NCBI GenBank assembly: GCA_026391835.1
Contig: JAPLDF010000041.1
Span: 186,001-250,000, forward strand
DNA length: 64,000 bases
Direction of reading: 5' to 3'
Origin: Bacteroidota bacterium
Lineage (GTDB): Bacteria > Bacteroidota > Bacteroidia > Bacteroidales > FEN-979
A program made the position numbers and the translations under genes. The notes beneath the pieces were generated by a model. The model made no database searches. It saw only the letters and a program-made list of their open reading frames with translations, and was not told the DNA's origin. Positions 19,146 to 63,512 of the stretch are shown piece after piece; position 1 is the stretch's first letter; the number at the start of each line of letters is the position of its first letter.

Positions 19146-19146
19146 A

Positions 19147-47432: not shown

Positions 47433-48650
47433 ATGAAGAAAATTCTGCCGCTCATAAGCCTGGTATGTGTTTTATACATCCAAACCATTGCACAGGAAAC
47501 GGTACAGTGGCGCGGTGCCGGCCGTGACGGTATATACAGCGAAACCAATTTATTAAAAAAATGGCCTGAGGCCGGGCCGCAACTGTTGTGGCATTTTGAC
47601 GGTTTGGGTGAAGGGCATGCCTCCCCCGCCGTGACCGGTAACCGGGTTTATACAGCCGGAATACTTGAAGGCATCGGTTACCTTTTCTGTTTTGACCTGG
47701 CCGGCAAACAACTATGGAAAGTTGCCTATGGTGAAGAGTGGACAGAAAGCTGGCCTGGTGTAAGGAGTACACCACTGGTATCCAACGGCAAAATATACCA
47801 GTTGAGCGGATTCGGGAAGCTGGTATGCCGCAATGCTGAAAACGGCGACTTCATCTGGAGCGTTGATGTTCTTAAGGATTATCAGGGCCCCAACATAAAG
47901 TGGGGTGTAACTGAAAACCTGCTTATCGACGGGAATAAGTTGTTTTGTACTGTCGGGGGAACAGAAGCCAATGTAATTGCGCTCAACCCCAACACAGGCA
48001 GCCTGATCTGGAAAAGCAAAGGGAAAGGTGAGGTCAGCGCTTACGGATCGCCTGCACTGATCAAACTGGCAAAAAAGCACATCCTGGTAGCCCAAACTGC
48101 CAATTCGATCCTGGGTATTGATACGGATAACGGCGCCCTGCTGTGGAGCCACGATCAGCCAAACAAGTACTCGGTGCATGCCAATACGCCACTATACCAT
48201 GACGGTTACCTCTATTGTGTTTCAGGATACGGGAAAGGCGGTGTAATGCTGAAAGTTTCCGACGATGGCAGCTCGGTTCAGGAAGTGTGGCGCAACACCA
48301 ACATTGACAATAAGATGGGTGGTTTTGTGCTTGTCAACGGAAAAATTTTCGGTTCTGACGATGCAGGAAAAGCATGGTATTGTCTTGACTGGAAAACCGG
48401 CACCAACATGTATTCTGAAAAAATTACCGGCCGCGGCAACATCATCTTTGCCGATGGGATGCTCTATTTATATGGTGACAATGGCGAAGTCGTCCTGGCC
48501 GAACCCCTGGCCAATTCATTCAAAAAGATCAGTGCATTCCAGGTTCCGTTTGGCGCAGATCAGCACTGGGCACACCTTGTGATCGGGAATGGCAGGCTCT
48601 ACGTGCGCCATGGAAGTTCACTGATGGTCTACGATATCCGGAGCAAATAG
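47433..48650 (+). CDS. Exported PQQ-like beta-propeller protein (tandem paralogue 1)
   Basis: A 405-aa exported protein; the ATG at 47433 gives a clean signal peptide (MKKILPLISLVCVLYIQTIAQ), whereas an upstream GTG at 47397 would not. The mature N-terminus has QWRGAGRDGIYSETNLLKKW, a motif seen in PQQ-like/BamB-type propellers of Planctomycetes, Verrucomicrobia and Bacteroidetes. Blade signatures such as ALNPNTGSLIWKSKGKG recur. It shares this layout with the next two genes, including SPxVTxxRIYxxG and EWTExxPGxRSTP. No haem motif (CxxCH) and no quinoprotein catalytic residues are seen, so it is probably structural or ligand-binding. Confidence 0.85.
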   Translation: MKKILPLISLVCVLYIQTIAQETVQWRGAGRDGIYSETNLLKKWPEAGPQLLWHFDGLGEGHASPAVTGNRVYTAGILEGIGYLFCFDLAGKQLWKVAYGEEWTESWPGVRSTPLVSNGKIYQLSGFGKLVCRNAENGDFIWSVDVLKDYQGPNIKWGVTENLLIDGNKLFCTVGGTEANVIALNPNTGSLIWKSKGKGEVSAYGSPALIKLAKKHILVAQTANSILGIDTDNGALLWSHDQPNKYSVHANTPLYHDGYLYCVSGYGKGGVMLKVSDDGSSVQEVWRNTNIDNKMGGFVLVNGKIFGSDDAGKAWYCLDWKTGTNMYSEKITGRGNIIFADGMLYLYGDNGEVVLAEPLANSFKKISAFQVPFGADQHWAHLVIGNGRLYVRHGSSLMVYDIRSK

Positions 48651-48737
48651 GATCACAGCGGGAAGCAGGTTCTTTCGTTTTCGTCGGCTTTCTATTGGCG
48701 TTTGTCAAATTTCCTGTCGTTTTTGGTTTTCACGTGG

Positions 48738-48745
48738 TATATTTG
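48738..48745 (+). promoter_or_regulatory. Candidate internal -7 box in the propeller cluster
   Basis: TATATTTG lies 31 bp before the start codon at 48777, in the 126-bp gap between propeller paralogues 1 and 2. Confidence 0.4.
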
Positions 48746-48776
48746 TGATTCAACCTGTTAATCAAAGAAAGTTTAC

Positions 48777-50003
48777 ATGAAAAAACAGTTCTCCATCCTG
48801 TTGATGCTGCTCGTCGCTGCACTTCCCGGTTATGTGCAAACAATCACCCAATGGCGCGGGGTCACCCGCGACGGGATTTACCACGAAACGAACCTGTTAA
48901 AGACATGGCCCGAAAACGGTCCTGAACTCAAATGGGCAATTGACAGCCTGGGAAATGGTTTTGCCTCTCCGGTTGTTACAAACGACCGTATTTACATACC
49001 CGGGGAAGTTGACAGTACAGGTTATCTTTTTGCATTTGACAAACAGGGAGGGCTGATCTGGAAACAGGAGACCGGGAAGGAGTGGACCGAAAACTTTCCG
49101 GGGCCCCGGTCAACACCTACTGTTGTGGACAACCTGATCTATTACTGCTCAAGCATGGGCGAGGTTATTTGCATGGACGCGGCAAACGGACAAAGAAAGT
49201 GGTCGGTCAACATGCTAAAAGATCTTCACGGCATAAATGTAAGGTTTGGCTATACCGAGTCACCGCTGATTGATGGGGACCGGCTGTTCTGTTTCCCAGG
49301 GGGCAGGGATACAAACGTGGTTGCATTAAACAGGTTCACCGGGAAGATGATATGGAAATCAAAAGCCATGGCCGATTCCGCATCGTATTGTTCGCCCATG
49401 ATGATCCGTCTGCCTGCAAACAACAAGATCCTTGTTACCCTGATGATCCATCACCTGATCGGGGTAGATGCTGCTACTGGCGACTTGTTGTGGTCATATC
49501 CGTTTGAACGCCCCGGCGACATCCATTGCAATACGCCTGTCTACGAAGGAGGGTTCATTTATTATGATGACAGGGGAGGAAATGGGATTGTAAAACTGGA
49601 ATTATCCCCTGATGGAAAATCCATCAGGGAGGTATGGCGGAATTTCAAGGGAGGGAATGTCCAGGGCGGCTCTGTTAAAATCGGGGAATACCTCTATGGC
49701 TCTCGGTATCGGCCAGCCCGGTTTGAGAGTGTTGTAGCATCAACAGGTGTGGTCGCCGACTCGGTAAAGTTCAATTGCGGTTCGACCATCTTTGCCGATG
49801 ACATGCTATACTGCTACAATGACCAGGGAGTGATGGGGCTGATCAAACCAAACCAGGGAAAACCTGAAGTTGTAAGTACATTTAAAATCACGGAAGGGAC
49901 CCTGGAACATTTCGCCCACCCGGTGATTTGTGACGGCGTGTTGTACATCAGGCATGGAAATGTACTCCTGGCATATGATATTCTCAAAAAACAACCTAAA
50001 TGA
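48777..50003 (+). CDS. Exported PQQ-like beta-propeller protein (tandem paralogue 2)
   Basis: A 408-aa exported protein with a signal peptide (1-20, ending PGYVQ). It starts QWRGVTRDGIYHETNLLKTW and shares with paralogues 1 and 3 the order GEVDSTGYLFAFD, GKEWTENFPGPRSTPTVV, GEVICMDAANGQRKWSV and ALNRFTGKMIWKSKA. It overlaps the next gene by 4 bp, so paralogues 2 and 3 are translationally coupled. It is closer to paralogue 3 than to 1 (shared GEVDSTGYLFAF and LSPDGKSIREVWRN-type segments). Confidence 0.85.
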   Translation: MKKQFSILLMLLVAALPGYVQTITQWRGVTRDGIYHETNLLKTWPENGPELKWAIDSLGNGFASPVVTNDRIYIPGEVDSTGYLFAFDKQGGLIWKQETGKEWTENFPGPRSTPTVVDNLIYYCSSMGEVICMDAANGQRKWSVNMLKDLHGINVRFGYTESPLIDGDRLFCFPGGRDTNVVALNRFTGKMIWKSKAMADSASYCSPMMIRLPANNKILVTLMIHHLIGVDAATGDLLWSYPFERPGDIHCNTPVYEGGFIYYDDRGGNGIVKLELSPDGKSIREVWRNFKGGNVQGGSVKIGEYLYGSRYRPARFESVVASTGVVADSVKFNCGSTIFADDMLYCYNDQGVMGLIKPNQGKPEVVSTFKITEGTLEHFAHPVICDGVLYIRHGNVLLAYDILKKQPK

Positions 50004-51253
50004 AGAATGTTATGAAAAACCGCTTCTGTCTTATTGCCTTCCTCTTTGTTTATTCCATTTCAGGTTTTGTTCAAACAACCGCCCAGTGGCGCGGGCCGGA
50101 AAGGAACGGGATTTTCCCGGAATCAAATCTTTTAAAAGCATGGCCTGCCGAAGGACCGGCGATGCTCTGGAAAACTGAGATCATCGGGAATGGTTACGGT
50201 GCCCCGACCGTTACTGCCGGCAGGATATTTATCACAGGAGAAGTTGACTCGACCGGATACCTGTTTGCTTTTACCCTCGAGGGAAAACTGCTGTGGAAAT
50301 CGGAATACGGGAAGGAATGGGTTGTAAATTACCAGGGTTCACGCTGTGCGCCAACTGTGGCAGGCGACCTAGTCTATGTTTGTTCGGGCCTGGGAGATCT
50401 TGCATGTTTTGATGCAGGGAACGGCAGAAAAAAATGGTCGGTCGACATGATCCATGATCTGCATGGAAGATTCACCCTGTTCGGGCATGCAGAATCATCG
50501 CTTATTGACGGCGACAAGGTTTTCCTGGTACCGGGAGGAAAAGACACCAATGTGGTGGCGATGAACCGGTTCACCGGGAAAATTATCTGGATATCCAAAG
50601 GACAAGGTGAAATCCCCGGTTATAATTCACCTTACCTGATCAAGTTGCCCGCCCGCCATGTGCTGGTAACATTTACTGCCTATTCCATGCTGGGACTCGA
50701 TGCACAAACGGGTCAGCTCCTCTGGGTTCATCCGCAGGATAACATACCGGTCCCCGAACGTAAACCTGGCAACGGAGATACCCACAGCAACACGGTTATC
50801 TATGACAGCGGGTTTATCTATTATTTTGCCGGAGACGGGAATTGCGCTGTAAAACTTGAATTGTCGGCTGATGGAAAAAATATCAGGCAGGTATGGCGGA
50901 ATAAAACCATCGACAACTACATGGGAGGCTTCGTGAAACAGGGAAAATATCTTTATTCATGCGTCTCGGAGAAGAGACAGCTGAAATGCCTTGATGCAGC
51001 CACCGGCCTGGTTGTGGATTCTCTGAAATGCGGGGCAGGTTCTATCATTCTGGCCGACAGCATGCTTTATTACTATAACCAAAAGGGAGAAGTCAGGCTG
51101 GTAAATCCCGGTCAGGGGAAAATGGTGCAGTCGGGATTTTTTAAACTCACCGCCGGAACAAAGGAACATTTTTCACATCCGGTTGTTGACAAAGGCGTGT
51201 TGTATATCAGGCATGGGGGTGTGATGGTGGCATATGATGTCGCGAGGAAGTAA
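50000..51253 (+). CDS. Exported PQQ-like beta-propeller protein (tandem paralogue 3)
   Basis: A 417-aa exported protein; the ATG at 50000 overlaps the previous stop (ATGA), and an ATG four codons later would also give a signal peptide (ending GFVQ). It starts QWRGPERNGIFPESNLLKAW and has GEVDSTGYLFAFTLEGKLLWKSEYGKEW and AMNRFTGKIIWISKGQGE. It ends with the shared tail GVLYIRHGGVMVAYDV, found also in paralogues 1 and 2 (LYVRHGSSLMVYD, LYIRHGNVLLAYD). An octamer array starts right after its stop codon. Confidence 0.85.
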   Translation: MKNVMKNRFCLIAFLFVYSISGFVQTTAQWRGPERNGIFPESNLLKAWPAEGPAMLWKTEIIGNGYGAPTVTAGRIFITGEVDSTGYLFAFTLEGKLLWKSEYGKEWVVNYQGSRCAPTVAGDLVYVCSGLGDLACFDAGNGRKKWSVDMIHDLHGRFTLFGHAESSLIDGDKVFLVPGGKDTNVVAMNRFTGKIIWISKGQGEIPGYNSPYLIKLPARHVLVTFTAYSMLGLDAQTGQLLWVHPQDNIPVPERKPGNGDTHSNTVIYDSGFIYYFAGDGNCAVKLELSADGKNIRQVWRNKTIDNYMGGFVKQGKYLYSCVSEKRQLKCLDAATGLVVDSLKCGAGSIILADSMLYYYNQKGEVRLVNPGQGKMVQSGFFKLTAGTKEHFSHPVVDKGVLYIRHGGVMVAYDVARK

Positions 51254-51309
51254 GCGGACGGGCGGACGGGCGGACGGGCGGACAGGCGGACGGGCGGACG
51301 GGTGGACAG
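51254..51309. repeat. GC-rich octamer tandem array (7 units)
   Basis: Seven nearly perfect 8-bp units (GCGGACGG five times, GCGGACAG once, GTGGACAG once) starting on the base after the stop codon of paralogue 3. Other period-8 arrays are at 35629 and 56475. Confidence 0.95.
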
Positions 51310-51402
51310 TGTTATTCAGATTGGTTTTGAATTCAGGCTGAGCTGATTATGCTGTGTGATTTTCAAGTAATTTAGCAGTTCATTTGCCGCATATAACTCC
51401 TT

Positions 51403-52833
51403 ATGTTCAAGAAGCACCTGACCAGGATTATTCTGCTGTTATTCATCATGTCGGCCACGGGGGTGCTTGGCTGGTGGTTTTTTCATGATCCTGTCAGGTC
51501 CATTAGCACTTCAGTTCCCGGCATGGATAACAGGAAAAAAGGAGCTGTTATTGCCGGAAAACCTGTTGTGATTGGTGCTGAATTCAAACTGTACAAGACT
51601 TCGCCGGACATACCCGGAACAAGATGGACGCGCTTCAGGGGGGCAGATTTTGACAATATCAGCAAAGAACCTGTCCGTTTGATAGAAAAATGGGGAAAGA
51701 CAGGACCGCGGATCCTATGGAAAATAACCCTTGGCGAAGGTCATGCCGCCCCGGTTGTTTACGACGGGAAAATCTACCTGCTTGATTACGACGAAGCCGG
51801 AAAGTCGGACCAGTTGCGTTGTTTCCTGCTGGCAACCGGTGAAGAACTATGGCGGCGCGGCTACCAGGTGAGGCTGAAGCGAAATCACGGGTTATCAAGG
51901 ACCGTTCCTGCCGTAAATGCAAAATTTGTACTGACCATCGGGCCAAAATGCCAGGTAATGTGCGTCAACCGTTTGAGCGGTGATTTTCTGTGGGGGCTCG
52001 ATCTTGAAAAGGAATTCAATACCGAAATTCCATTCTGGTATACCGGTCAATGCCCGCTGCTTGACAACGACACGGCGATCATTGCCCCTGGTGGCAAAGC
52101 GCTCCTTGTAGCCATTGACTGCAATACCGGCAGGAAAATTTGGGAAACGTCCAATCCTAAAGGGTGGAAAATGTCCCACTCATCGGTGATGCCAATGACC
52201 ATCAAAGGGAAAAAAATGTATGTTTACTTCGCTATCGGCGGGGTTTGCGGAATTTCGGCATCCGGTCCCGACAAGGGCAGGGTCTTGTGGGAGACCTCTG
52301 GTTTTTCACCATCCGTCGTGGCGCCGTCGCCGGTTATTCTTGACGACGGGAAAATATTCCTGACTGCCGGGTATGGAGCGGGATCGGCACTGCTGCAGGT
52401 CACGCATAAAGAAGGAAAATACCTTGTGAACGTGTTGCAAAAGTACAAACCACAGGATGGGCTGGCATCTGAGCAGCAAACGCCGATTTTTCACAACGGC
52501 TACCTGTATGGGATCATGCCCAAGGATGCAGGTGGTTTGAGAAACCAGTTCACCTGCTACCGGTCGGGCGATTGTAAAATGCCGGTCATGAACAGCGGCA
52601 AAACCAACAGGTTCGGCCTGGGGCCATACATCATGGCGGATGGGAAATTTTTCATCCTGAACGACGACGGGGAGATGACAATTGCCGCTGTCTCAACGTC
52701 GCAATTTAACGTCCTGGATAAAGCCCGGATCATTGAGGGCCAGGACTCATGGGGGCCGGTTGCCATCACAGGCGGTTACCTGCTGATGCGGGATTCAAGG
52801 CAAATGGTATGCATCGATATTGAAGCGCATTAA
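51403..52833 (+). CDS. Membrane-anchored PQQ-like beta-propeller protein (divergent)
   Basis: A 476-aa protein with an uncleaved-looking N-terminal helix (about 8-27, IILLLFIMSATGVLGWWFF), so it is probably anchored in the inner membrane with the propeller in the periplasm. The propeller start RWTRFRGADFDNISKEPVRLIEKWGKTGPRILW is a diverged form of the WRGxxRxG motif in the neighbouring paralogues, and GHAAPVVYDGKIYLLDYDE follows. It is separated from paralogue 3 by 149 bp including the octamer array. The stop is followed after 1 bp by the next gene. Confidence 0.82.
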   Translation: MFKKHLTRIILLLFIMSATGVLGWWFFHDPVRSISTSVPGMDNRKKGAVIAGKPVVIGAEFKLYKTSPDIPGTRWTRFRGADFDNISKEPVRLIEKWGKTGPRILWKITLGEGHAAPVVYDGKIYLLDYDEAGKSDQLRCFLLATGEELWRRGYQVRLKRNHGLSRTVPAVNAKFVLTIGPKCQVMCVNRLSGDFLWGLDLEKEFNTEIPFWYTGQCPLLDNDTAIIAPGGKALLVAIDCNTGRKIWETSNPKGWKMSHSSVMPMTIKGKKMYVYFAIGGVCGISASGPDKGRVLWETSGFSPSVVAPSPVILDDGKIFLTAGYGAGSALLQVTHKEGKYLVNVLQKYKPQDGLASEQQTPIFHNGYLYGIMPKDAGGLRNQFTCYRSGDCKMPVMNSGKTNRFGLGPYIMADGKFFILNDDGEMTIAAVSTSQFNVLDKARIIEGQDSWGPVAITGGYLLMRDSRQMVCIDIEAH

Positions 52834-52834
52834 T

Positions 52835-53803
52835 ATGAAAAAGAAAATCATACTCTTTGCTGCACTGACTCTTTTAATGGCAGTCATTTTATTTATGGCC
52901 TGGGATATGTTTTTCAACAAACCGGCCGACAAGGGGAATCCATATGCCTACGATCTTAAGGCATTCAAGTCGGGAGATTCTTCAAAGATCATGTATGCCG
53001 AAGTGCAGCATTTCAGCCCCGGACTCCCTGCCATTCACGGGATCGCCTGTGATCAATCTGACCGTATCTTTATCTGTGGCGATAACGGGGTTGAAATCTA
53101 TGATCATGCCGGCAATCGTAAAAACGGTTTTACTGTAAACGGGACAGCCAACTGCATCCAGGTTGATCCGGACGGACGGATTTACCTTGGCATGCAGGAA
53201 CATGTCGAAATTTTTGACAACACGGGCAAACAGCTGAAAAAATGGAAGACCTGCGATAAAGATGCGATCATTACATCCATTGCCATTGCCGGAAAAGATG
53301 TGTTCATTGCTGATGCCGGCAATAAAGTGGTATGCCATTATGACCAGGATGGCAACCTTGTGAAAAGAATTGGGGAAAAAGATCCTGCCAGGAATATCCC
53401 CGGGTTTGTTGTTCCAAGTCCTTACTTTGACCTGGGCACTGATGGCAACGGGTCACTCTGGGTTGTAAATCCCGGCCGTCACCGTATTGAGAAATACAAC
53501 CACGACGGGGATTTAACCTTCACCTGGGGTGAATCTTCCATGGCCATGGAGGGTTTTTGCGGATGCTGCAATCCGTCTAACTTTGCCATGCTTTCCGACG
53601 GTTCTTTTGTTACCAGTGAAAAGGGGATCGAACGCATCAAGGTATATGGAATGCGTGGTGATTTCAGATACATGGTAGCGGGTTCCGACGCATTTGTTGA
53701 AGGCACCCGTGGCCTTGATATTGCCGTGGATTCAAAGGACCGGATCCTCGTGCTTGATCCTGAAAAGAAACAGGTAAGGATTTTTACGTTGAAAAAACCA
53801 TAG
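52835..53803 (+). CDS. Membrane-anchored NHL-repeat beta-propeller protein with GCCNP motif
   Basis: A 322-aa protein with an N-terminal membrane helix (about 4-26). Six NHL-like blades follow (GIACDQSDRIFICGDNGVEIYD, CIQVDPDGRIYLGMQEHVEIFD and others). The motif FCGCCNPSNFAMLSDGSFVTSEKG carries Cys242, Cys244 and Cys245 and is characteristic of a widely occurring exported NHL family. The ATG at 52835 starts 1 bp after the previous stop; a TTG at 52820 in the same frame is less likely. The clustered cysteines could hold a metal or a disulfide. Confidence 0.8.
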   Translation: MKKKIILFAALTLLMAVILFMAWDMFFNKPADKGNPYAYDLKAFKSGDSSKIMYAEVQHFSPGLPAIHGIACDQSDRIFICGDNGVEIYDHAGNRKNGFTVNGTANCIQVDPDGRIYLGMQEHVEIFDNTGKQLKKWKTCDKDAIITSIAIAGKDVFIADAGNKVVCHYDQDGNLVKRIGEKDPARNIPGFVVPSPYFDLGTDGNGSLWVVNPGRHRIEKYNHDGDLTFTWGESSMAMEGFCGCCNPSNFAMLSDGSFVTSEKGIERIKVYGMRGDFRYMVAGSDAFVEGTRGLDIAVDSKDRILVLDPEKKQVRIFTLKKP

Positions 53804-53833
53804 GACTGACCAGTGAATCAGGAGAAAAAAGTG

Positions 53834-54070
53834 ATGCAGAACCGGAGAAAATTCATAAACACGCTCATCAGAGGAGGGATTTTTACCTCACTGACCTTGT
53901 TTAGCGGGATACTGGTGCGGCGTTGGAGTGAATCTGAGGGTTGTCAACAAAACCATGCCTGCGGCAACTGCGGATTGTCTGACCGTTGCCGGCTCCCTGA
54001 AGCAGACAGGCACCGCCTTGACAGGGCATTGCAAAAAACCAAAACAGCTGATGGAAGATCCGGGAAATAA
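53834..54070 (+). CDS. Small twin-arginine signal protein with a Cys-rich tail
   Basis: A 78-aa protein starting MQNRRKFINTLIRGG, a twin-arginine-like signal/anchor with a hydrophobic stretch (about 16-28), followed by a short tail with four cysteines, Cys37, Cys43, Cys46 and Cys52 (C-x5-C-x2-C-x5-C) and LPEADRHR. I chose the ATG at 53834 with AGGAG upstream; a GTG at 53813 is also in frame. The last 20 bp overlap the next gene. The Cys pattern could hold an Fe-S cluster or zinc. The signal resembles that of the following ferredoxin (NRRRFLAAGVRGS). Confidence 0.72.
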   Translation: MQNRRKFINTLIRGGIFTSLTLFSGILVRRWSESEGCQQNHACGNCGLSDRCRLPEADRHRLDRALQKTKTADGRSGK

Positions 54071-54632
54071 CCAAAAAATCAACCGGCGGAGATTTCTTGC
54101 AGCCGGTGTGAGAGGCTCGGTGCTGCTGGGAATCGGCGGGGTTGCCGCCCTCGTTGTTAAAAACAGCGCTGCCGGCCAGATGGTGTGGCAGCTTAACCCG
54201 GCAAAGTGCATCCAGTGCGGCCGTTGCGCGACCAATTGTGTCATGTCCCCTTCGGCTGTGAAATGTGTGCATGTTTATGCCATGTGCGGGTACTGCGATT
54301 TATGCGGCGGGTATTTCAAGCCCGAAACCAAAACGCTGAACACCGGTGCCGAAAACCAGCTTTGTCCCACCAGTGCCATCAAGCGGAAGTTTGTGGAGGA
54401 TCCGTTCTTTGAGTATACCATTGACGAGCCGCTTTGTATTGGCTGCGGAAAATGCGTGAAGGGTTGCAGCTCATTCGGCAACGGGTCACTGCAACTTCAG
54501 GTGAGGCATGACAGGTGTCAAAATTGCAACCACTGCTCCATTGCACGGAATTGTCCGGCTGATGCATTCAGCCGCGTGCCGGCTGGGGAGCCTTACCTGC
54601 TCAGACAGGTTGCTGATGATAAAAAGGCATAA
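54051..54632 (+). CDS. Twin-arginine-exported polyferredoxin (NapG-like)
   Basis: A 193-aa protein. The Tat signal NRRRFLAAGVRGSVLLGIGG is followed by four Cys-rich cluster motifs: CIQCGRCATNC, CGYCDLCGG, CIGCGKCVKGC and CQNCNHCSIARNCP, enough for about four [4Fe-4S] clusters. This is the layout of NapG/MauM-type periplasmic ferredoxins that pair with a NapH-like membrane protein, here encoded 10 bp downstream. I chose the ATG at 54051; the in-frame ATG at 53928 lies deep in the previous gene. It should carry electrons on the periplasmic side. Confidence 0.85.
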   Translation: MEDPGNNQKINRRRFLAAGVRGSVLLGIGGVAALVVKNSAAGQMVWQLNPAKCIQCGRCATNCVMSPSAVKCVHVYAMCGYCDLCGGYFKPETKTLNTGAENQLCPTSAIKRKFVEDPFFEYTIDEPLCIGCGKCVKGCSSFGNGSLQLQVRHDRCQNCNHCSIARNCPADAFSRVPAGEPYLLRQVADDKKA

Positions 54633-54642
54633 ACGCTGTACG

Positions 54643-55929: not shown

Positions 55930-57758
55930 CCAGATCAATTTTTCCATACGACAGTGGGAACACGCAGAAAATCGTGTCGTTGCTGCGCTATATTGCCATT
56001 GCCAGCGCAATTTCCGCCATGATCCTATGTCTCCTCATTGCGGTCAATTTCATCCAGGTCAGGCGTGCTGATCCGCTCAACACACAAGTGATGAAGGTTA
56101 TGATTGAACGGATGCATGCCAATCCTGCGGATCAACAACTCCGCCAGGAAATCCGGGAAATAGACCTCCTTTCACGTAAGGCTTTCTTCACCACCCAATG
56201 GCAGATCCGTACGGGAGGATATCTCCTGTTTTTCAGCCTGCTGATTTCTGTCATTTGCATAAAAAGTATCGAATTGCTGGGCAAATCAACACCCGGGGTA
56301 CCTGCTGCATTGAAGGCTGATTTCTGGATCACCAGGAAAACCGGCAGAAAATGGGTGGTTTATACCGGGATTTCGGTTGTGATATTTTCATTTGTCCTGG
56401 TTATTCTTACGCACCAGGAGCTTGGAACAAGCCTGGATATGGCTATAAAAGACCCGGGAAATAAGGAAATGAGTGAATACGGGAATACAAGAATACGGGA
56501 ATACAAGAATACGGGAATAAAGGAACAAGGGAATGCAGATACGGTGCAGCAACAAGACACCGTTAAGATTGCAGCCGCCACAAACATGGATGGCTACCCA
56601 TCGATGCAGGAGATAACCGGCAATTTCCCGTCATTCCGGGGGCCCGGTGGAAATGGGATCGCCTTTCAGAAAAACATCCCCTCCAGCTGGGACGGGAAAA
56701 GCGGGAAAAACATCAAATGGAAGACGGCGATCCCGCTGCCGGGATACAACTCCCCCATCATCTGGAACGACAGGGTTTTTATCACCGGTGCCAGCGAAAC
56801 CAAACGTGAGGTTTATTGCATTGATCTCAATACAGGGAAGATACTGTGGCAGAAGGATGTCGGAAAAATCCCCGGCAGCCCTTCGCAGGAGCCGAAAACT
56901 ATAAGGGAAACAGGGTTTTGTGCGCCGACCATGACAACTGACGGACGGCGTGTATATGCAATATTTGCTAACGGAGATCTCATCGCCCTCGATTTTGACG
57001 GGAACCAGGTATGGACAAAAAATCTTGGCATGCCGCAGAATCACTACGGGCACTCCTCCTCGCTGATCATGTACCGCGACCTGCTCATCATCCAATACGA
57101 TCAGCGCGGATCGGGCAGTGTCATGGCTCTTTATGGGAAAACCGGTGAGAAGGCATGGCAGGCAAGCCGCAGCGTCAAAATTTCATGGGCTTCGCCGGTA
57201 ATCGTCAATACCGGAAAACGAACTGAATTGATTCTCGCTGCGGATCCCATTATTGCATCGTACAATCCTGCCGATGGCAAGGATTTGTGGCAGATGAACT
57301 GCATCTCCGGCGAAGTAGGCCCAAGTGTGGCCTATGCCGACGGGGTGGTTTTTGCGGTAAATGATTTCTCCAAACTATCCGCCATCGCGATCGGCGATCC
57401 GCCTAAATTGCTCTGGGAGGATTCCGACTACCTGTCGGATATTCCCAGTCCGCTGGCCACCGGGAAGTTCCTGTTCCTGGTAACCAGCTACGGAACCGTT
57501 GTTTGCTATGATGCAAAAAACGGGACCAAATACTGGGAACAGGAATTTGAGACGCCCACCTATGCTTCACCAATACTGGCAGAAGGAAGAGTTTACCTGC
57601 TTGATAAAAAAGGCATCATGCATATTTTCCCTGCCGACCAGGTATACAAAGCCACCGGGCAACCCGCACTTGGCGAAGGTTCCTCATGCACCCCGGCGTT
57701 TGCCGATGGAAAGATAATTCTCAGGGGGGATAAAAACCTGTATTGTATCGGAAAATAA
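55926..57758 (+). CDS. Polytopic membrane protein fused to a PQQ-like beta-propeller
   Basis: A 610-aa protein. Three membrane helices (about 18-43, 95-115 and 138-158) precede a linker encoded by 8-bp tandem repeats (about 178-205) and a seven-to-eight-bladed propeller (about 220-610) that starts FPSFRGPGGNGIAF. Blade signatures include VYCIDLNTGKILWQKDVGK and LIALDFDGNQVWTKNL. It ends in NLYCIGK, close to the KVYCFGK end of the propeller at 62348-63478. It is translationally coupled to the NapH/NosR-like gene, suggesting that its membrane part contacts that protein. Confidence 0.82.
   Translation: MTRSIFPYDSGNTQKIVSLLRYIAIASAISAMILCLLIAVNFIQVRRADPLNTQVMKVMIERMHANPADQQLRQEIREIDLLSRKAFFTTQWQIRTGGYLLFFSLLISVICIKSIELLGKSTPGVPAALKADFWITRKTGRKWVVYTGISVVIFSFVLVILTHQELGTSLDMAIKDPGNKEMSEYGNTRIREYKNTGIKEQGNADTVQQQDTVKIAAATNMDGYPSMQEITGNFPSFRGPGGNGIAFQKNIPSSWDGKSGKNIKWKTAIPLPGYNSPIIWNDRVFITGASETKREVYCIDLNTGKILWQKDVGKIPGSPSQEPKTIRETGFCAPTMTTDGRRVYAIFANGDLIALDFDGNQVWTKNLGMPQNHYGHSSSLIMYRDLLIIQYDQRGSGSVMALYGKTGEKAWQASRSVKISWASPVIVNTGKRTELILAADPIIASYNPADGKDLWQMNCISGEVGPSVAYADGVVFAVNDFSKLSAIAIGDPPKLLWEDSDYLSDIPSPLATGKFLFLVTSYGTVVCYDAKNGTKYWEQEFETPTYASPILAEGRVYLLDKKGIMHIFPADQVYKATGQPALGEGSSCTPAFADGKIILRGDKNLYCIGK
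56475..56538. repeat. Octamer tandem array translated within a propeller gene
   Basis: Eight 8-bp units (GAATACGG three times, GAATACAA twice, then GAATAAAG, GAACAAGG, GAATGCAG). Three units make 24 bp, so the peptide repeats every eight residues (EYGNTRIR, EYKNTGIK, EQGN). It forms part of the linker between membrane helices and propeller. Confidence 0.92.
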
Positions 57759-57848
57759 AATCACCATTGTACAAAAAACACGAAGAAGGCAGATGCCACA
57801 GAACTGACATTCGTTCAATTTATGGATAACAGAAAAATATTTACGGGA

Positions 57849-57870
57849 TTTTTCGTTTGTAAACGAAAAA
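57849..57870. promoter_or_regulatory. Perfect 10-bp palindrome upstream of the MaoC-like gene
   Basis: Arms TTTTTCGTTT (57849-57858) and AAACGAAAAA (57861-57870) are separated by GT. The palindrome lies 26 bp before the start codon at 57896. It could be an operator or a weak terminator for the preceding operon. Confidence 0.5.
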
Positions 57871-57895
57871 AGCATAATTTGATAAAAAAAACGAC

Positions 57896-58360
57896 ATGGG
57901 GAAACTGGTAATAAACAGCTTTGAAGAATTCGAGCAATACATCGGAAAAGAATTGGGAATCTCCGGGTATCTGAAAATCACGCAGGAGCAGATCAACAAA
58001 TTTGCTGAAGCCACCCTGGATTATCAATGGATCCATATGGATGCCGAACGGGCAAAGGCGGAAAGTCCATATAAGACAACCATTGCGCATGGATATTTAA
58101 ATCTTTCCGTCCTGCCGTATTTATGGGGGCAGATCGTTGAGGTAAACAATATCAAGATGCTGGTAAATTACGGCATTGAAAAACTCAGGTTCAACCACCC
58201 TGTTTTGGTTGACAATGAAGTGAGGGTCCGGGCAAAACTCGCTTCTTTAATCAACCTGAGAGGAATAACCAAAGCTGAGGTGAATGTCTCGCTTGAGATC
58301 AAGGATAACAAGAAAACGGCCTTTGATGCAACAGTGGTTTTTCTCTATCATTTTATGTGA
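57896..58360 (+). CDS. MaoC-like dehydratase (enoyl-CoA hydratase type)
   Basis: A 154-aa hot-dog-fold protein. The hydratase 2 catalytic region is DYQWIHMDAERAKAESPYKTTIAHGYLNLSVLP, with the Asp and His of the active site (D-x4-H-x-D order) and the G(Y/H) loop. Family members hydrate trans-2-enoyl-CoA or release acyl groups, for example in polyhydroxyalkanoate supply. It sits between the membrane half and the cytosolic half of the cluster; whether it belongs to the same pathway is unclear. Confidence 0.85.
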   Translation: MGKLVINSFEEFEQYIGKELGISGYLKITQEQINKFAEATLDYQWIHMDAERAKAESPYKTTIAHGYLNLSVLPYLWGQIVEVNNIKMLVNYGIEKLRFNHPVLVDNEVRVRAKLASLINLRGITKAEVNVSLEIKDNKKTAFDATVVFLYHFM

Positions 58361-58399
58361 TGTGACATCTCGCAATTCTAAAAGATAGCGGCCGGAAAC

Positions 58400-60757
58400 A
58401 TGGATGTAAATAACCAGCATATCAACGAAAAAGTCGACCGGATGGTAGCCCTCCATGGCTCAACCGTTGATGCCGTTATTCCGATACTGCAGGATATCCA
58501 GCATGAATTCAACTTTCTCCCTGAACCAGCCCTCAGGCGGGTTTGCGAAACCACCGACATTACGCCGGCAGGGATTTCGGGGATATCTACCTTTTATACG
58601 CAGTTCAGGCATTCGCCGGCCGGGAGGCACAGCATCCTTGTATGCACCGGCACGGCCTGCCATGTGAAGGGTGCCTTGTTTGTTTATGAAGCGTTCAGGC
58701 GCGAACTTAAACTGGAGGAGGGTGAAGACACGGACGCCTCCATGATATTCACCCTCGGGAAAGTAGCCTGTCTGGGCTGCTGTACCCTGGCGCCGGTTGT
58801 GCGGATTGACGAGGTGACCTATGGCCATGTGCAGCCGGAAAGTGTTTCATCGCTTTTACGTGATTTTCTTACCAAGAAAAACGATGGCATTTCCACTGCC
58901 CTGCCGGCAGGAGCCGGGAGACATGTTTCACAGGGTGAAATCCGTATCGGGTTGGGATCCTGTTGCGTGGCCAGCGGCAGTTCCGACGTTAAAATGCAGC
59001 TCGAACGGACCCTGGCGCAGACAAAGATCAACGTGGATGTCAGGCAGGTCGGATGTGTTGGCATTTGCAACCAGGTTCCCATTATGGAGATCATCAAGCC
59101 CGGGGAGAGCCCGGCATATTATGCAAGGATTAAGCCGGAAGAAGTGAGGGAAGTGCTGCTCAGGCATTTCAAACCGGAGGGTTATGTAAACCGGTTCAAA
59201 ACCGGTTTTTACAACCTTTTTGAAAATATCCTGGCGGATGGCGCTCCAAAGTCGTTCAGGAAATACCTGGGCGAACAACGGGACACACCATTGTCAAAAT
59301 TTCTGGGCCCGCAGGTCAACATTGCCACAGAGAACAGGGGAGTTACAAACCCCATTGACCTGGAAGGCTACAGGGGTGGCGGCGGATTCGAATCCCTGCG
59401 AAAATGCCTGGCAGAGATGACTCCCGGGGAGGTAACCGACGAGATCAAATTGAGCGGTTTGCGTGGCCGCGGGGGTGCAGGTTTTCCGACCGGACAAAAA
59501 TGGCAGCTGGTAAAAGACCAGGCTGATCCTGAAAAATTCGTGATCTGCAACGGCGATGAGGGCGATCCCGGCGCTTTTATGGACCGCATGCTGCTTGAAT
59601 CCTATCCGTTCAGGATCATTGAAGGAATGCTGATTGCCGGTTACGCCACCGGGGCATCCCACGGAATCTTTTACATCCGCGCCGAGTACCCGCTTGCGGT
59701 GATGCGCATCGGCGAAGCATTGAGAATCTGCCGGGAAAACGGAATTATCGGATCCTCCATCCTCGGTTCGGGGTTCTCTTTTGATGTCCGTATTTTTGGC
59801 GGGGCCGGCGCTTTCGTATGCGGGGAGGAGACCGCCCTTATCGCCTCTGTGGAAGGGAAACGCGGAATCCCCCGGATGCGGCCACCCTACCCGGTCGTAA
59901 AAGGACTATGGAATAAACCCACCCTCATCAACAATACCGAAACGCTATCCCTGGTTCCATGGATCATCCACCACGGGGCCGATGCCTTTGCAAAAACCGG
60001 CAGCCCCGGCAGCAAGGGAACGAAAGTATTTGCCCTGGCAGGCAAAGTAAAACGTGGCGGGTTGATCGAAGTACCCATGGGCATTACCATCCGGAAGATC
60101 GTAGAGGAGATCGGCGGGGGTATTGCCGGCGATAAAAAATTCAAGGCCGTTCAGATCGGGGGCCCGTCGGGGGGCTGCCTGCCGGCTTCGGAAACGGATA
60201 TGCCCATTGATTTTGAAGCACTGAAAGGCGCAGGGACCATGATGGGCTCAGGCGGCATGATCGTCCTGGACGAAGCTGATTGCATGGTCGATATTGCCCA
60301 CTATTTTCTTTCATTTACCCAAAGCCAATCCTGCGGACGATGCACCTTTTGCAGGATCGGCACCCGCCGGATGCTGGAAATTCTTGACAAGATACGCAAT
60401 GGAAACGGAATGCAGGAAGACCTGGCAAACCTGGAAACACTGGCGCTGAGCACTTCACGCGGCAGCCTGTGCGGACTCGGAAAGACAGCACCAAACCCGG
60501 TTCTTACCACTCTTCGTTACTTCCGCGAAGAGTATGAGGCCCACCTGAATGGAATGTGTCCTGCGGGGAAATGTCTTCCGCTTATTCACTATGAGGTTAC
60601 CGATGCATGCATCGGATGCACCAAATGTGCACAGCGCTGCCCGTCGGATGCAATTGCGTTCGCCCCCTATGAAAAACATACCATTGACCCGGAAAAATGT
60701 ATTAAATGCGACATCTGCAGGCAAATCTGCCCGGTTGATGCCATCCTGATTCTTTAA
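58400..60757 (+). CDS. NuoE-NuoF fusion with extra Fe-S domains (HydB/C-like NADH-binding flavoprotein)
   Basis: A 785-aa cytosolic protein. Residues 1-155 are a NuoE domain with its [2Fe-2S] ligands Cys82, Cys87, Cys124 and Cys128. Residues 180-260 are a second thioredoxin-like [2Fe-2S] domain (Cys188 or Cys189, Cys219, Cys223). Residues 270-715 are NuoF: GRGGAGFPTGQKW for NADH, CNGDEGDPGAFMDR and GAGAFVCGEETAL for FMN, and Cys645, Cys648, Cys651 and Cys691 for [4Fe-4S]. Residues 735-785 hold two further [4Fe-4S] motifs. This domain order is that of the HydB subunit of bifurcating hydrogenases with HydC fused in front. The next gene starts 1 bp after the stop. Confidence 0.93.
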   Translation: MDVNNQHINEKVDRMVALHGSTVDAVIPILQDIQHEFNFLPEPALRRVCETTDITPAGISGISTFYTQFRHSPAGRHSILVCTGTACHVKGALFVYEAFRRELKLEEGEDTDASMIFTLGKVACLGCCTLAPVVRIDEVTYGHVQPESVSSLLRDFLTKKNDGISTALPAGAGRHVSQGEIRIGLGSCCVASGSSDVKMQLERTLAQTKINVDVRQVGCVGICNQVPIMEIIKPGESPAYYARIKPEEVREVLLRHFKPEGYVNRFKTGFYNLFENILADGAPKSFRKYLGEQRDTPLSKFLGPQVNIATENRGVTNPIDLEGYRGGGGFESLRKCLAEMTPGEVTDEIKLSGLRGRGGAGFPTGQKWQLVKDQADPEKFVICNGDEGDPGAFMDRMLLESYPFRIIEGMLIAGYATGASHGIFYIRAEYPLAVMRIGEALRICRENGIIGSSILGSGFSFDVRIFGGAGAFVCGEETALIASVEGKRGIPRMRPPYPVVKGLWNKPTLINNTETLSLVPWIIHHGADAFAKTGSPGSKGTKVFALAGKVKRGGLIEVPMGITIRKIVEEIGGGIAGDKKFKAVQIGGPSGGCLPASETDMPIDFEALKGAGTMMGSGGMIVLDEADCMVDIAHYFLSFTQSQSCGRCTFCRIGTRRMLEILDKIRNGNGMQEDLANLETLALSTSRGSLCGLGKTAPNPVLTTLRYFREEYEAHLNGMCPAGKCLPLIHYEVTDACIGCTKCAQRCPSDAIAFAPYEKHTIDPEKCIKCDICRQICPVDAILIL

Positions 60758-60758
60758 C

Positions 60759-62351
60759 ATGGTAAAGCTGACGATCGACCATATCCCCGTTGAGGTGCAG
60801 GAAGGAATTTCTGTCATGGATGCTGCCGCCACCTTTGGCATCACCATTCCTTCCTTGTGTTTCCTGCAGGGGCTCTCAAACCATCCCTCGTGCATGATCT
60901 GCCTGGTGAAGGATCTTGACAGGGGGCACCTTGTCCCGTCGTGTGCCATGCCGGTTTCAGATGGAATGAACATCCTCACCGGGTGTGCTGAAGTCCTGGA
61001 AGCCAGGAAAGAAGCTCTCGAACTGCTGCTCAGCGACCATGTGGGCGATTGTGAAGCTCCGTGCAGGATCTCATGCCCGGCATTTATGGATATTCCCCTG
61101 ATGAACCGGCTGATCGGCTCAGGCAATTTTGAGCAGGCCCTGAGTGTTGTGCGGGAGGAGATTGCCCTGCCCATGGTGCTTGGTTATATCTGCCCGGCTC
61201 CGTGTGAAAAGGCCTGCAAGCGCAAGCAGATCGACCAGCCGGTTTCGGTCTGCCTGCTAAAACGGGCAACAGCCCAGTATGAAATACCGCAAAACGACGC
61301 ATTTTATAGTATTTCGCTGGACAACAGGAAGAAGGTAGCCATCATCGGTACCGGACCAGCCGGGCTTGCCGCCGCATTCAGCCTGCTAAGCTCAGGCCAT
61401 GCCTGCGTTTTGTACGACCAGCATGAAAAAGCCGGCGGTACTTTGCAATATGACATCCCGGATGAACACCTTCCAAGGGCGGTGCTTGATGCTGAAATCG
61501 CTGTCATCAGGAAGATGGGCGCTGAATTCCGACTGGGCATTACCGTTACCAGGGAAATATTCCGGCATTCGATCCTGCCTGCGTTTGATGCGGTAATCCT
61601 GGCAACAGGAACCATGTTATCTGATCCCGCCACCATGTTCGGCCTTGCACCGGATGAACATGGCACGTACATTGATAAAAAAACATTCTCAACAAGCCTG
61701 CCCGGTGTTTTTGCCGGTGGAAATATCATCCGCGAACAGAAAATGGCGGTGCATTCGGTGGCGCAGGGAAAAATGGCGGCAAAACAGGTGGAGATCTATC
61801 TTGGGACACAACATCCTGGAACCGAAGGCGAGTCCAGGCGTAAATCCGTTTCGGCAACAGGCCCCTTGTTTGAGCCTGAATGGAATGAGTACCTCAAAGA
61901 GAGCAGCCATGACCAGCGGACCATCCCGGCAGGGGGCATTTCCCGGGGCTTCACCCGCGAAGAGGCCATACATGAAGCAAAACGCTGCCTCCGTTGCGAT
62001 TGCAGGAAACCGGTCAGCTGCAAACTCAGGATGTACGCCGAAACATATGGTGCAGGCAGGAAACGATTCACAGGCCCGGAGCGAAAAATACTCACAAAAT
62101 CGTTTCACCATGAATTTGTTGTTTACGAAACGGAGAAATGCATCCGCTGCGGTTTATGTGTTGAAATTACGGAGAAGCAGGGTGAATCGGTCGGGCTGAC
62201 ATTTGCAGGCAGGGGATTTGATGTCCGTATTTCAGTCCCGTTTAATCAGACTACCAGGGAGGCGCTGACCTCAACGGCAAAGCTTTGCGTGGAGTCATGC
62301 CCCACGGGAGCCCTGGCATTTAAAGACCAGGAAGAAAGAAAACCATTATGA
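60759..62351 (+). CDS. GltD-like Fe-S flavoprotein with N-terminal [2Fe-2S] domain, lacking the NAD(P)H domain
   Basis: A 530-aa protein. Residues 1-78 are a NuoG/HydA-type [2Fe-2S] domain with Cys34, Cys45, Cys48 and Cys62. Residues 98-165 correspond to the Fe-S N-domain of the glutamate synthase small subunit (Cys98, Cys102, Cys106, Cys145, Cys149, Cys153). The FAD-binding Rossmann fold starts VAIIGTGPAG (193-202) and closes with LPGVFAGGN (314-322). Only about 35 residues separate ILATGT from VFAGGN, where GltD proteins carry a whole NADPH-binding domain. The C-terminus (about 415-530) has NuoG-like motifs CIRCGLC and SCPTGAL. It probably receives electrons from the NuoEF partner rather than from a nucleotide of its own. 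Confidence 0.85.
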   Translation: MVKLTIDHIPVEVQEGISVMDAAATFGITIPSLCFLQGLSNHPSCMICLVKDLDRGHLVPSCAMPVSDGMNILTGCAEVLEARKEALELLLSDHVGDCEAPCRISCPAFMDIPLMNRLIGSGNFEQALSVVREEIALPMVLGYICPAPCEKACKRKQIDQPVSVCLLKRATAQYEIPQNDAFYSISLDNRKKVAIIGTGPAGLAAAFSLLSSGHACVLYDQHEKAGGTLQYDIPDEHLPRAVLDAEIAVIRKMGAEFRLGITVTREIFRHSILPAFDAVILATGTMLSDPATMFGLAPDEHGTYIDKKTFSTSLPGVFAGGNIIREQKMAVHSVAQGKMAAKQVEIYLGTQHPGTEGESRRKSVSATGPLFEPEWNEYLKESSHDQRTIPAGGISRGFTREEAIHEAKRCLRCDCRKPVSCKLRMYAETYGAGRKRFTGPERKILTKSFHHEFVVYETEKCIRCGLCVEITEKQGESVGLTFAGRGFDVRISVPFNQTTREALTSTAKLCVESCPTGALAFKDQEERKPL

Positions 62352-63478
62352 GGCAAGGAATACGCCAAAGGTCGTTCACGCTGCTGCTAATCTTTTTGGC
62401 AGGAACATTTGGTTTGTCCGCCCAGGTAAAAAGCGCAGAATGCTGGCCCTCTTTTCGGGGTGATGCCCGTCTGTCGGGCGTTTCTCCGGCCATCATCAAG
62501 CCTCCTTTCAGGCTGCTCTGGACTTTTAAAACCGGGGATGCCATCAAATCTTCTGCTGTTATCTGGAAAACCACGATTTATATAGGATCCAACGACGGGT
62601 ATGTTTATGCGCTCAATTCCTCCGGAACGCTGAAATGGAAATTCAATGCCGGAACATCCGTTGAAGCTCCCCCGTTGATTGTGGGAAATACCATTTATGC
62701 CGGGACCATGGAGGGAATCCTCTTCGCCCTAGATGCAGAAACAGGTTCGGTGAAATGGAAGTACGCCACGGATGGCCAGATTTCAGGATCAGCAAACGTT
62801 GTTTCTGGTGTTGACAACAAACATACATCGATCCTGGTTGGAAGTTACGATTTCAACCTTCATTCCGTGGATGCAGCGAGTGGAAAACTCCTGTGGAAAT
62901 ACGAATCGGGGAATTTCATCAATGGTTCACCTGCTATTGCCGGTAAACTCGCCATTTTTGGCGGTTGCGACGGCTTTTTACACCTCGTCGGGACGCAGGA
63001 CGGGAAAGCAAGGCAAAAGGTTGATCTCGGGACGTACATTCCCGCATCAGCCGCTATTTTAGGAGAAAAAGCTTTTTTTGGCAATTATGACGGGGTGTTC
63101 TATTGTTTTGATCTCAGGCTGAAGAAAATCCTTTGGAAAACCGAAGGAGGAGGGGCCTTCCTGGCATCACCTGCGATCGGATCCGGCAAGGTTGTTACCG
63201 GGTCGCAGAACCGCAACATCTCCTGTTTTGATGCGGTGAGCGGAAAGCTGTTGTGGAAATTCAAAACACTCGGAAAAGCAGATGCTTCGCCGGTGATTTC
63301 AGGCAACCTCGTCCTCGCCGCTTCGGGCGACGGCAGGTTGCATGTGCTGGATATCGGCACCGGAAATGAATTATGGGTTTATGAAATCGGAAGTCCCGTT
63401 TTCAGCACCCCTGCTGTCACTTCAAACATGATCGTGGTCGGGGCGCAGGATGGAAAGGTTTATTGTTTTGGAAAATAG
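62348..63478 (+). CDS. Exported PQQ-like beta-propeller protein (cluster-terminal)
   Basis: A 376-aa exported protein with a signal peptide (about 1-25, ending GLSAQ). The mature part starts CWPSFRGDARLSG, a variant of the WRGxxRxG motif, with regular blades marked by ALDAETGSVKWKYATDG, SVDAASGKLLWKYESGN, CFDAVSGKLLWKFKTLG and VLDIGTGNELWVYEIG. These are BamB-like PQQ-fold repeats without catalytic residues. It overlaps the flavoprotein gene by 4 bp, so an exported propeller is translationally coupled to a cytosolic redox enzyme. It ends KVYCFGK. Confidence 0.88.
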   Translation: MRQGIRQRSFTLLLIFLAGTFGLSAQVKSAECWPSFRGDARLSGVSPAIIKPPFRLLWTFKTGDAIKSSAVIWKTTIYIGSNDGYVYALNSSGTLKWKFNAGTSVEAPPLIVGNTIYAGTMEGILFALDAETGSVKWKYATDGQISGSANVVSGVDNKHTSILVGSYDFNLHSVDAASGKLLWKYESGNFINGSPAIAGKLAIFGGCDGFLHLVGTQDGKARQKVDLGTYIPASAAILGEKAFFGNYDGVFYCFDLRLKKILWKTEGGGAFLASPAIGSGKVVTGSQNRNISCFDAVSGKLLWKFKTLGKADASPVISGNLVLAASGDGRLHVLDIGTGNELWVYEIGSPVFSTPAVTSNMIVVGAQDGKVYCFGK

Positions 63479-63512
63479 GCCTTCAACGGGCATGAATTAA
63501 TTTAAGTTGATT

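Follow-up and report, generated by a model that had tools for sequence, protein, structure and literature searches.

Do the flavoproteins, iron–sulphur (Fe-S) proteins and beta-propellers encoded side by side in a Bacteroidota bacterium belong to a single system, and if they do, with which partners would that system exchange electrons? The locus that raises this question is a cluster of thirteen co-directional genes on the plus strand, at positions 47433–63478 of a 64,000-nucleotide stretch of contig JAPLDF010000041.1 (the whole of which is hereafter called the window). Comparison with related genomes indicated that the gene set is one conserved system and not a chance neighbourhood. Judging from the domains and ligands of its proteins, it is modestly probable that this system is a membrane-tethered NADH/ferredoxin oxidoreductase of the electron-bifurcating (Bfu) type, in which soluble NADP is replaced by a transmembrane Fe-S conduit. 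The genes of the cluster, together with the first gene of the tail that follows it, are listed below; lengths are in amino acids (aa), and Tat denotes twin-arginine translocation.

47433–48650, plus strand: PropA, an exported PQQ_2/BamB-like beta-propeller of 405 aa with an N-terminal signal (PF13360, 5e-26; a lone N-terminal hydrophobic segment by hydropathy).
48777–50003, plus strand: PropB, an exported propeller paralogue of 408 aa (PF13360, 1.1e-27).
50000–51253, plus strand: PropC, an exported propeller paralogue of 417 aa (PF13360, 2.1e-25).
51403–52833, plus strand: PropD, a propeller of 476 aa with a single N-terminal hydrophobic segment as anchor (PF13360, 5.2e-18).
52835–53803, plus strand: NHL, a membrane-anchored NHL propeller with the motif GFCGCCNP (PF01436).
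53834–54070, plus strand: TatS, a 78-aa Tat-signal protein with a C-x5-C-x2-C-x5-C motif (from the sequence).
54051–54632, plus strand: TatFd, a Tat-exported NapG-like polyferredoxin with Cys for four [4Fe-4S] clusters (Fer4 domains).
54643–55929, plus strand: a NapH-like membrane ferredoxin with two CxxxCP and two [4Fe-4S] motifs (PF12801, 6e-15; hydropathy).
55926–57758, plus strand: MemProp, a PQQ_2 propeller with three N-terminal membrane segments (PF13360, 1.7e-31; hydropathy).
57896–58360, plus strand: a MaoC-like dehydratase (PF01575, 8.9e-22).
58400–60757, plus strand: a predicted BfuC-BfuB fusion (NuoEF), consisting of NuoE, a second thioredoxin-like 2Fe-2S domain, NuoF and two [4Fe-4S] clusters (PF01257, PF01512, PF10589, Fer4_21).
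60759–62351, plus strand: predicted BfuA, with a NuoG-like 2Fe-2S domain, a GltD-like flavin adenine dinucleotide (FAD) part and an Fe-S domain, without the NADP(H) domain (Pfam, alignment).
62348–63478, plus strand: PropZ, an exported BamB-like propeller (TIGR03300, 149 bits, under the cut-off of 285.2).
63507–64000, plus strand: a GT4 glycosyltransferase, which continues beyond the window end (Pfam).

An earlier reading of this DNA made without database searches (hereafter, the sequence-only reading) had named these genes, and Pfam, NCBIfam and hydropathy analyses located all of them, co-directional, in the same interval. Five of its six PQQ-like propellers are recognised by PF13360 and the sixth, PropZ, by the sub-cut-off TIGR03300 match, and MemProp has the three membrane segments that had been assigned to one of them. 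The 4-bp overlaps on which it had drawn were found at three joints (PropB/PropC at 50000–50003, NapH/MemProp at 55926–55929 and BfuA/PropZ at 62348–62351), and TatS and TatFd overlap by 20 bp. It had also remarked on missing catalytic subunits: family scans of the stretch gave no nap, nos, hydrogenase or formate dehydrogenase match, and none of the four propellers scanned with NCBIfam (PropB, PropD, MemProp and PropZ) rose above the cut-off for a PQQ (pyrroloquinoline quinone) dehydrogenase. The gene set was therefore right, whereas its extent needs amendment, since a MaoC-like gene within the cluster went unmentioned and the conserved unit runs past 63478, where the glycosyltransferase gene is followed by those for an ABC ATPase and then an FtsX-type permease (locus L009). 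The MaoC-like gene was called in just 5 of 63 other loci and is therefore not counted as part of the system.

The case for a single system rests on joint presence and on gene order. When BfuA, TatFd and PropD were searched for separately in 120 relatives, TatFd was found in 47 genomes, representing 13 families of the order, and PropD in the identical 47; BfuA had a match in 44 genomes, all of them among these 47. As for the other three, BfuA is present but shorter in G065, and in G100 and G004 the contig stops before the position of the gene. A total of 63 loci, mutually non-overlapping by a simple check, were annotated by BLAST with the window proteins (17 of 32 named loci were annotated; most of the remainder have contigs equal in length to those of loci already included, and L115, L121 and L123 were omitted as fragments). 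Thirty-three loci span PropD to PropZ, and 31 of these have the order PropD-NHL-TatFd-NapH-MemProp-NuoEF-BfuA-PropZ on one strand; in the remaining two (L055 and L077), TatFd is fused to NapH. Genes for exported, membrane and cytosolic proteins are thus interleaved, with gaps that are mostly short or with overlapping ends, and the order was kept in other families, whose proteins are only about 30–66% identical to those of the window. PropZ follows BfuA in 50 of 56 cases, the two being separated by a long open reading frame (ORF) in L107, and the tail is conserved as well, with the glycosyltransferase following PropZ in 42 of 45 cases, the ABC ATPase following the glycosyltransferase in 35 of 40, and the FtsX permease following the ABC ATPase in 32 of 32; in L138 and L144, the tail lacks the glycosyltransferase. 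The variable members are PropB, PropC and MaoC, with PropB-type proteins called in 7 and PropC-type proteins in 6 of the 63 other loci. TatS was called in 14 of the 63, which is probably an undercount, since a protein of this length easily escapes BLAST and fused copies were excluded. The sequence-only reading had proposed a single system, to be doubted if the Fe-S genes occurred without the propellers or the reverse; no such genome was found among the 120 relatives, and the fixed order in the spanning loci bears the proposal out.

The predicted cytosolic core is the fusion encoded at 58400. It had been described as a NuoE-NuoF fusion, and a fusion it is; its resemblance, however, is not to complex I, and it bears the signature of electron-bifurcating BfuBC. 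Its three best matches in the PDB come from the Nfn-ABC, T. sibiricus NfnABC and StnABC complexes, in each case from the B subunit, and these BfuB/StnB-type proteins ranked above hydrogenase HydB, formate dehydrogenase and complex I. The counts of conserved Cys and His residues given here and below refer to orthologues that match >80% of the query, one per locus, with n varying by protein and L138–L145 left out. The BfuC part (PF01257, 8.9e-47) has C82, C87, C124 and C128 in 52 of 52 rows, and the BfuB part (PF01512, PF10589 and PF14697) has the Cys ligands of the N3-type cluster and of the two [4Fe-4S] clusters in 51 or 52 of 52, with one miss overall. The B2 cluster of BfuB is described as having five ligands, among them a His present in virtually all BfuB and absent from non-bifurcating homologues (PMC9304861). 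The B2 ligands given for NiFe-Bfu are C438, H525, C531 and C536 (PMC9304861), and the equivalents here, C628, H715, C720 and C725 in the alignment to 7t2r_B, were kept in all 52 rows. By these sequence features the protein is a predicted BfuC-BfuB fusion, the putative core of an enzyme of the NADH/ferredoxin electron-bifurcating type, and the cytosolic core falls within the published Bfu domain definition. Given the BfuBC signature, ferredoxin is therefore expected as the second cytosolic partner.

In a BfuB tree that included the paralogues of the window genome, the system formed a single clade (support 100/100); its neighbour was the Stn-type BfuB, a grouping that is moderately and not strongly supported (84/89). 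The window genome also holds a Stn-like NuoE-NuoF-GltD/molybdopterin set (L131) and two NuoE/NuoF/[FeFe]-hydrogenase sets (L132), and the system is therefore a further, distinct Bfu of this genome.

The neighbouring BfuA would account for the route by which electrons leave this core. Its Pyr_redox_2 match covers just positions 1–72 of the 291-position family, whereas a full-length homologue in the same genome is covered over 1–291. Residues 2–289 and 277–522 of BfuA align to positions 4–291 and 427–674 of the StnC-type 9bov_A, leaving out positions 292–426, a gap of ~135 residues that corresponds to the region of the NADP(H) Rossmann fold. The description of this protein as a GltD-like flavoprotein without a nucleotide domain is borne out by both observations. 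Orthologues range from 439 to 574 aa, some being shortened by contig ends, and the GxGxxG motif of the FAD site is kept. The top four Foldseek matches of the BfuA model were StnC/NfnA-type subunits; only the identity of these matches was used, as the model had a predicted local distance difference test (pLDDT) score of 70.9 and a root-mean-square deviation >22 on the top matches. Replacing R239 of StnC with Ala is reported to lower activity in Stn to 0.03 from 1.08 U/mg (PMC10482914); the equivalent position 237, as read from the 9bov_A alignment, is Arg in 9 of 56 rows and His in the window. The equivalent of StnC K170, a ligand of cluster C7, is K168, which is Lys in 55 of 56 rows. In two loci from other families of the order (L138 and L144), BfuA is shortened to 323 and 327 aa and the FAD domain is gone too, with all conserved Cys except C165 retained. 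On these alignments, BfuA is a StnC/NfnA-type subunit whose NADP(H) domain is absent in the window and throughout the orthologues. Since the nucleotide site has gone and, in another lineage, the flavin as well, BfuA would therefore be an electron wire, and its partner would more likely be a one-electron protein than a soluble hydride carrier. The third partner of the Bfu core is thus probably a protein, and within the cluster the NapGH-like pair is the strongest candidate for this role.

That pair belongs to a membrane and periplasmic module whose Fe-S motifs are strongly conserved. In all 44 of 44 rows, the NapH-like protein retains 15 Cys and one His; its score against TIGR02163, 54.5 bits, is far below the cut-off of 213.05 for the curated NapH family. 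In TatFd, the conserved Cys are present in 35 of 35 rows (C72 in 34) and the Tat motif in 34 of 35, and the four Cys of TatS are kept in all six aligned rows. TatFd and the NapH-like protein look like NapGH, a pair proposed to be a quinol dehydrogenase, a role that is disputed (PMC6195509). In L055 and L077, both from genus g8, TatS, TatFd and NapH are encoded by a single open frame (638 and 637 codons, respectively). The NHL protein has C244 and C245, in the motif GFCGCCNP, in 37 of 37 rows, and those of L138 and L144 start with a Tat-like signal and end with a TatS-like Cys motif (judged by eye). This architecture and the TatS-TatFd-NapH fusion together point to NHL, TatS, TatFd and NapH working jointly, as far as domain arrangements can tell. 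The AlphaFold2 model of NHL (pLDDT 89.9) found NHL domains as its best Foldseek matches; as a clue to function, the fold was set aside, the nearest solved structures being animal NHL domains such as that of TRIM2, which suggested none.

A distant relative of this module was observed at L141:1-6042 (G004:C237), where genes for a DUF4369-NHL protein with GCCNP, a phosphonate-binding-like protein, TatFd (37%), NapH (33%) and a DsbD-type protein lie together. This 6-kb contig, from a genome with 6% contamination, has no Bfu genes and no PQQ_2 propellers. From this set, the membrane module may be older than the system and reusable.

Among the propellers, PropD has C140, C187 and C217 in 34 of 34 aligned rows. 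PF01011, the family of PQQ-dehydrogenase propellers, was matched above the Pfam cut-off of 26.7 bits by PropA, PropB, PropC and MemProp (26.8–41.5 bits), with best stretches that are short (38–81 of 595 positions), and the best PDB match of PropA was a quinoprotein ethanol dehydrogenase over residues 94–215 (122 residues). Among the four propellers scanned with NCBIfam, TIGR03075 gave 48.7, 50.8 and 85 bits in PropB, MemProp and PropZ, all below the cut-off of 480, and no match in PropD, and the BamB family TIGR03300 gave 30.6–149 bits, below its equivalog cut-off of 285.2. An adjacent Cys pair, which we take to be a feature of PQQ binding, does not occur in the six window propellers; among orthologues, CC occurs anywhere in 5 of 31 PropA, 13 of 34 PropD, 1 of 44 MemProp and 2 of 47 PropZ rows. 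We infer a scaffolding role for the propellers.

Taken in sequence, the BfuC-BfuB fusion would exchange electrons with NAD(H) and ferredoxin, BfuA would take the mid-potential electrons and serve as an Fe-S wire, and the NapH-like protein would carry them across the membrane to the clusters of TatFd and TatS, with NHL and the BamB-like propellers organising the envelope side and holding an envelope partner. The likeliest direction would be outward, with NADH and reduced ferredoxin confurcated to an electron acceptor in the envelope. We infer the transfer from BfuA to NapH, its direction, the bifurcation activity and the role of the propellers. The path between NADH and the envelope through Fe-S proteins that the sequence-only reading had proposed, in one direction or the other, therefore survives in outline, as an NAD(H)-reactive module and transmembrane and periplasmic Fe-S proteins are co-encoded, but not in its NADH part, which is not complex-I-like. 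In a bolder version, the system would provide cytochrome-free extracellular or envelope electron export in Bacteroidales: energy coupling by NADH/ferredoxin confurcation would be linked, along a transmembrane conduit made up of Fe-S proteins alone, to an envelope assembly built of propellers, and the third substrate of the Bfu enzyme would be the cell exterior. This is a tentative and rather doubtful proposal.

Several observations weigh against the proposed enzyme or against its unity. The fifth B2 ligand, described as a variable Cys or Thr that lies outside the Bfu domain definition (PMC9304861), corresponds to position 666, which is R in 28, C in 16, T in 6 and K in 2 of 52 rows and R in the window; with Arg or Lys at this ligand in 30 of 52, bifurcation may be altered or lost. 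The equivalent of K168 is lost in L138 and L144. No fusion of BfuA to NapH was seen, and no direct evidence links the two. The joint between MemProp and NuoEF, where the membrane and cytosolic halves meet, is the weakest of the cluster, being direct in 39 of 51 cases, with insertions that amount to ~9 kb in L041 and to 3.8 kb or more in L045 and comprise two or more unrelated genes in L063, so that two transcripts are possible; the 33 spanning loci, by construction, exclude loci with such large breaks. PropZ does not follow BfuA in L105 and L114. In G079, PropD lies on a different contig, and neither it nor a propeller of any other kind occurs within 6.9 kb upstream of NHL. In 73 of the 120 relatives, G007 of the window's own genus among them, the searches did not find the system. 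No CxxCH motif occurs in the 13 window proteins and the three tail proteins, and a surface location, electron transfer or PQQ binding by the propellers is unproven. The ORFs inserted between MemProp and NuoEF were considered as a clue to the substrate and dropped, because their kinds, as judged by eye, differ from genome to genome.

These breaks are an argument for supposing that two unrelated operons, a Bfu enzyme and a separate NapH/propeller envelope system, happen to be neighbours: insertions concentrate at the MemProp-NuoEF joint, and L141 has relatives of NHL, TatFd and NapH without Bfu genes. Yet none of the 120 relatives was found with one half alone, TatFd and PropD occur together in 13 families of the order, and a propeller gene overlaps the BfuA gene and usually follows it, which makes this explanation improbable. 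If the genes do form one system, electrons might still run the other way, from an envelope donor through TatFd and NapH to a Bfu core that bifurcates them to NAD+ and ferredoxin. Reversibility has been described for the Bfu mechanism (PMC9304861), the gene layout suits both directions, and NapH-like modules are reported to accompany an alcohol oxidase as well as reductases (PMC8238504); inward flow would, however, require a periplasmic donor near -400 mV, and family scans of the cluster recognised no catalytic subunit of a periplasmic oxidase or dehydrogenase, unless a propeller is one. We regard this direction as unlikely.

The membrane step could instead end at a quinone, with the NapH-like protein providing a menaquinone site, the Bfu core and NapH acting as an NADH/ferredoxin:menaquinone oxidoreductase, and TatFd having a separate periplasmic task. 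The quinol dehydrogenase role proposed for NapGH (PMC6195509) and the proposed use of menaquinone by Nuo-Bfu (PMC9304861) are in keeping with this, but the TatFd-NapH fusion and the set of propellers would be left unexplained. Nor is the system a simple substitute for Rnf or Nqr: in 56 hand-chosen genomes, PF03116 occurred in 14 of the 29 carriers of the system and 18 of the 27 non-carriers, and replacement was rejected on this comparison. A quinone-linked enzyme therefore seems somewhat unlikely. The same domain is missing in 19 of 23 genomes of family f1 among the 56, with or without the system, and the window genome has no PF03116 (NQR2/RnfD-family) match. Contigs C65, C51, C81 and C4 of the window genome hold three NuoH-family matches (two of them strong) and one cytochrome bd oxidase match. 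Finally, the electrons might serve not respiration but the maturation of the envelope, driving the reductive assembly or modification of its proteins, glycans or lipids with the propellers as scaffold. The genes for a glycosyltransferase, an ABC ATPase and an FtsX permease in the conserved tail speak for this, as do the joining of NHL(GCCNP), TatFd and NapH to a DsbD-type gene in the distant G004 set, with no Bfu genes on its 6-kb contig, and the squalene-hopene-cyclase-like, polyprenyl-synthetase and radical SAM genes, some recognised by eye, upstream of PropA in G065 and G434. Set against this, the tail of L138 and L144 has no glycosyltransferase, and no terpenoid genes were recognised beside the other clusters, where most unassigned upstream ORFs were not scanned; a role in envelope maturation appears distinctly unlikely.

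The proposed membrane-tethered Bfu enzyme can be compared with several described systems. It shares with type 1 Nfn-Bfu/StnABC (8oh5, 9bov, 9n5u) the BfuB/BfuC core, including its Fe-S ligands and a flavin mononucleotide (FMN) domain, and a BfuA with a NuoG-like 2Fe-2S domain, a GltD-like FAD part, an Fe-S domain and the K170 equivalent. It differs in that BfuC and BfuB are fused, the NADP(H) domain is gone, R239 is not kept, the long C-terminal FdhF-like domain of StnC is absent (530 versus 1172 aa), the FAD domain is missing in two genomes, and genes for membrane Fe-S proteins and propellers are linked. As in the NapGH pair, to which MauMN and NosGH are similar, a polytopic protein bearing two CxxxCP and two [4Fe-4S] motifs comes after a Tat polyferredoxin that has the Cys ligands of four clusters; here, unlike there, no Nap or Nos catalytic partner is present, the cytosolic partner is a Bfu enzyme, and TatS is fused to the pair in two genomes. 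In flavinylated systems, NapH-like proteins are likewise described as modular transmembrane electron carriers of mostly unknown purpose, but with FMN-binding partners (PMC8238504), whereas a multi-cluster ferredoxin takes the periplasmic place here, and no FMN-binding domain was found in the window and tail proteins scanned with Pfam (E 0.001; PropZ was scanned with NCBIfam only). Nuo-Bfu and Mbh-Bfu also tie a Bfu module to membrane subunits, but they are proposed to be proton pumps with complex-I-type or Mbh subunits (PMC9304861), and none of these occurs here. The PQQ_2/BamB-type repeats are shared with BamB and PQQ-dependent dehydrogenases, and the four propellers scanned with NCBIfam fall far below the family cut-offs.

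Named records that carry the system are assigned to uncultured Bacteroidales, Marinilabiliales, other Bacteroidetes, Cytophagales and one Chlorobiota metagenome-assembled genome (one genome scan), and their isolate names suggest that some carriers come from lakes and sediments. In a sample of 395 genomes of the class, BfuA (1e-45) had matches in 5, of which only those in the window genome and G415 were full-length, and TatFd in 4 (the window genome, G434, G290 and G415); G434 has a FAD-less BfuA, which the BfuA search overlooked, and the contig of G290 stops in MemProp. Across the class and phylum samples, G415 and G290, from one family of the same class, are the only carriers beyond the order. 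Among the 395 genomes of the phylum sample, TatFd matched none except the window's own, and BfuA matched 88, where, apart from the window's own, the match reaches at most about the first 320 residues. These partial matches were rejected as instances of the system, since in L127–L130 and L133 the protein is solitary or part of a Stn-type set. Many genomes of family f158 (L127, L128 and others) encode a GltD-like protein with a NuoG-type 2Fe-2S domain, mostly of 660–840 aa, and no NuoE/NuoF adjoins it in L127 and L128, the two f158 loci opened.

Other genes were observed beside the cluster or elsewhere in the window. In G065 and G434, which belong to other families, the region immediately upstream of PropA is occupied by terpenoid-type genes, the last of which has a 4-bp overlap with PropA; such stretches occur at L138:173-2790, L144:14867-19899, L146:1-1882 and L147:15657-19901. 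Scans identified prenyltransferase and squalene-hopene-cyclase domains in G065 and polyprenyl-synthetase/DUF116, radical SAM and Fe-S genes in G434, and the counterparts of each genome's genes in the other were recognised by eye. At 16788–20250, the window encodes an aminotransferase class V protein fused to an AIRS domain, adjoining a rhodanese-domain gene; we take the aminotransferase to be NifS-like and the AIRS domain SelD-like, and the rhodanese gene is presumably a candidate for tRNA 2-selenouridine synthase. A 140-aa ORF at 45999–46421 has repeated LAPVTP..ADF-like stretches and no Pfam match.

No description of a combination of Bfu, NapGH-like and propeller genes was found in the literature searched, which covered few subscription journals. 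The system is apparently a Bfu variant with a new kind of third partner, and it suggests a so far undescribed electron route to or from the cell envelope in many uncultured Bacteroidales. Seventeen BfuB clades are listed without an assigned function (PMC9304861), and for one BfuB lineage, whose nucleotide site has been lost and which adjoins a transmembrane Fe-S conduit, the gene set offers a function that can be tested. If the proposal is true, it would add, in uncultured bacteria, a new coupling of electron bifurcation to the cell envelope through a haem-free conduit, and would assign a role to a set of NHL and 'PQQ-like' propellers that so far have none.

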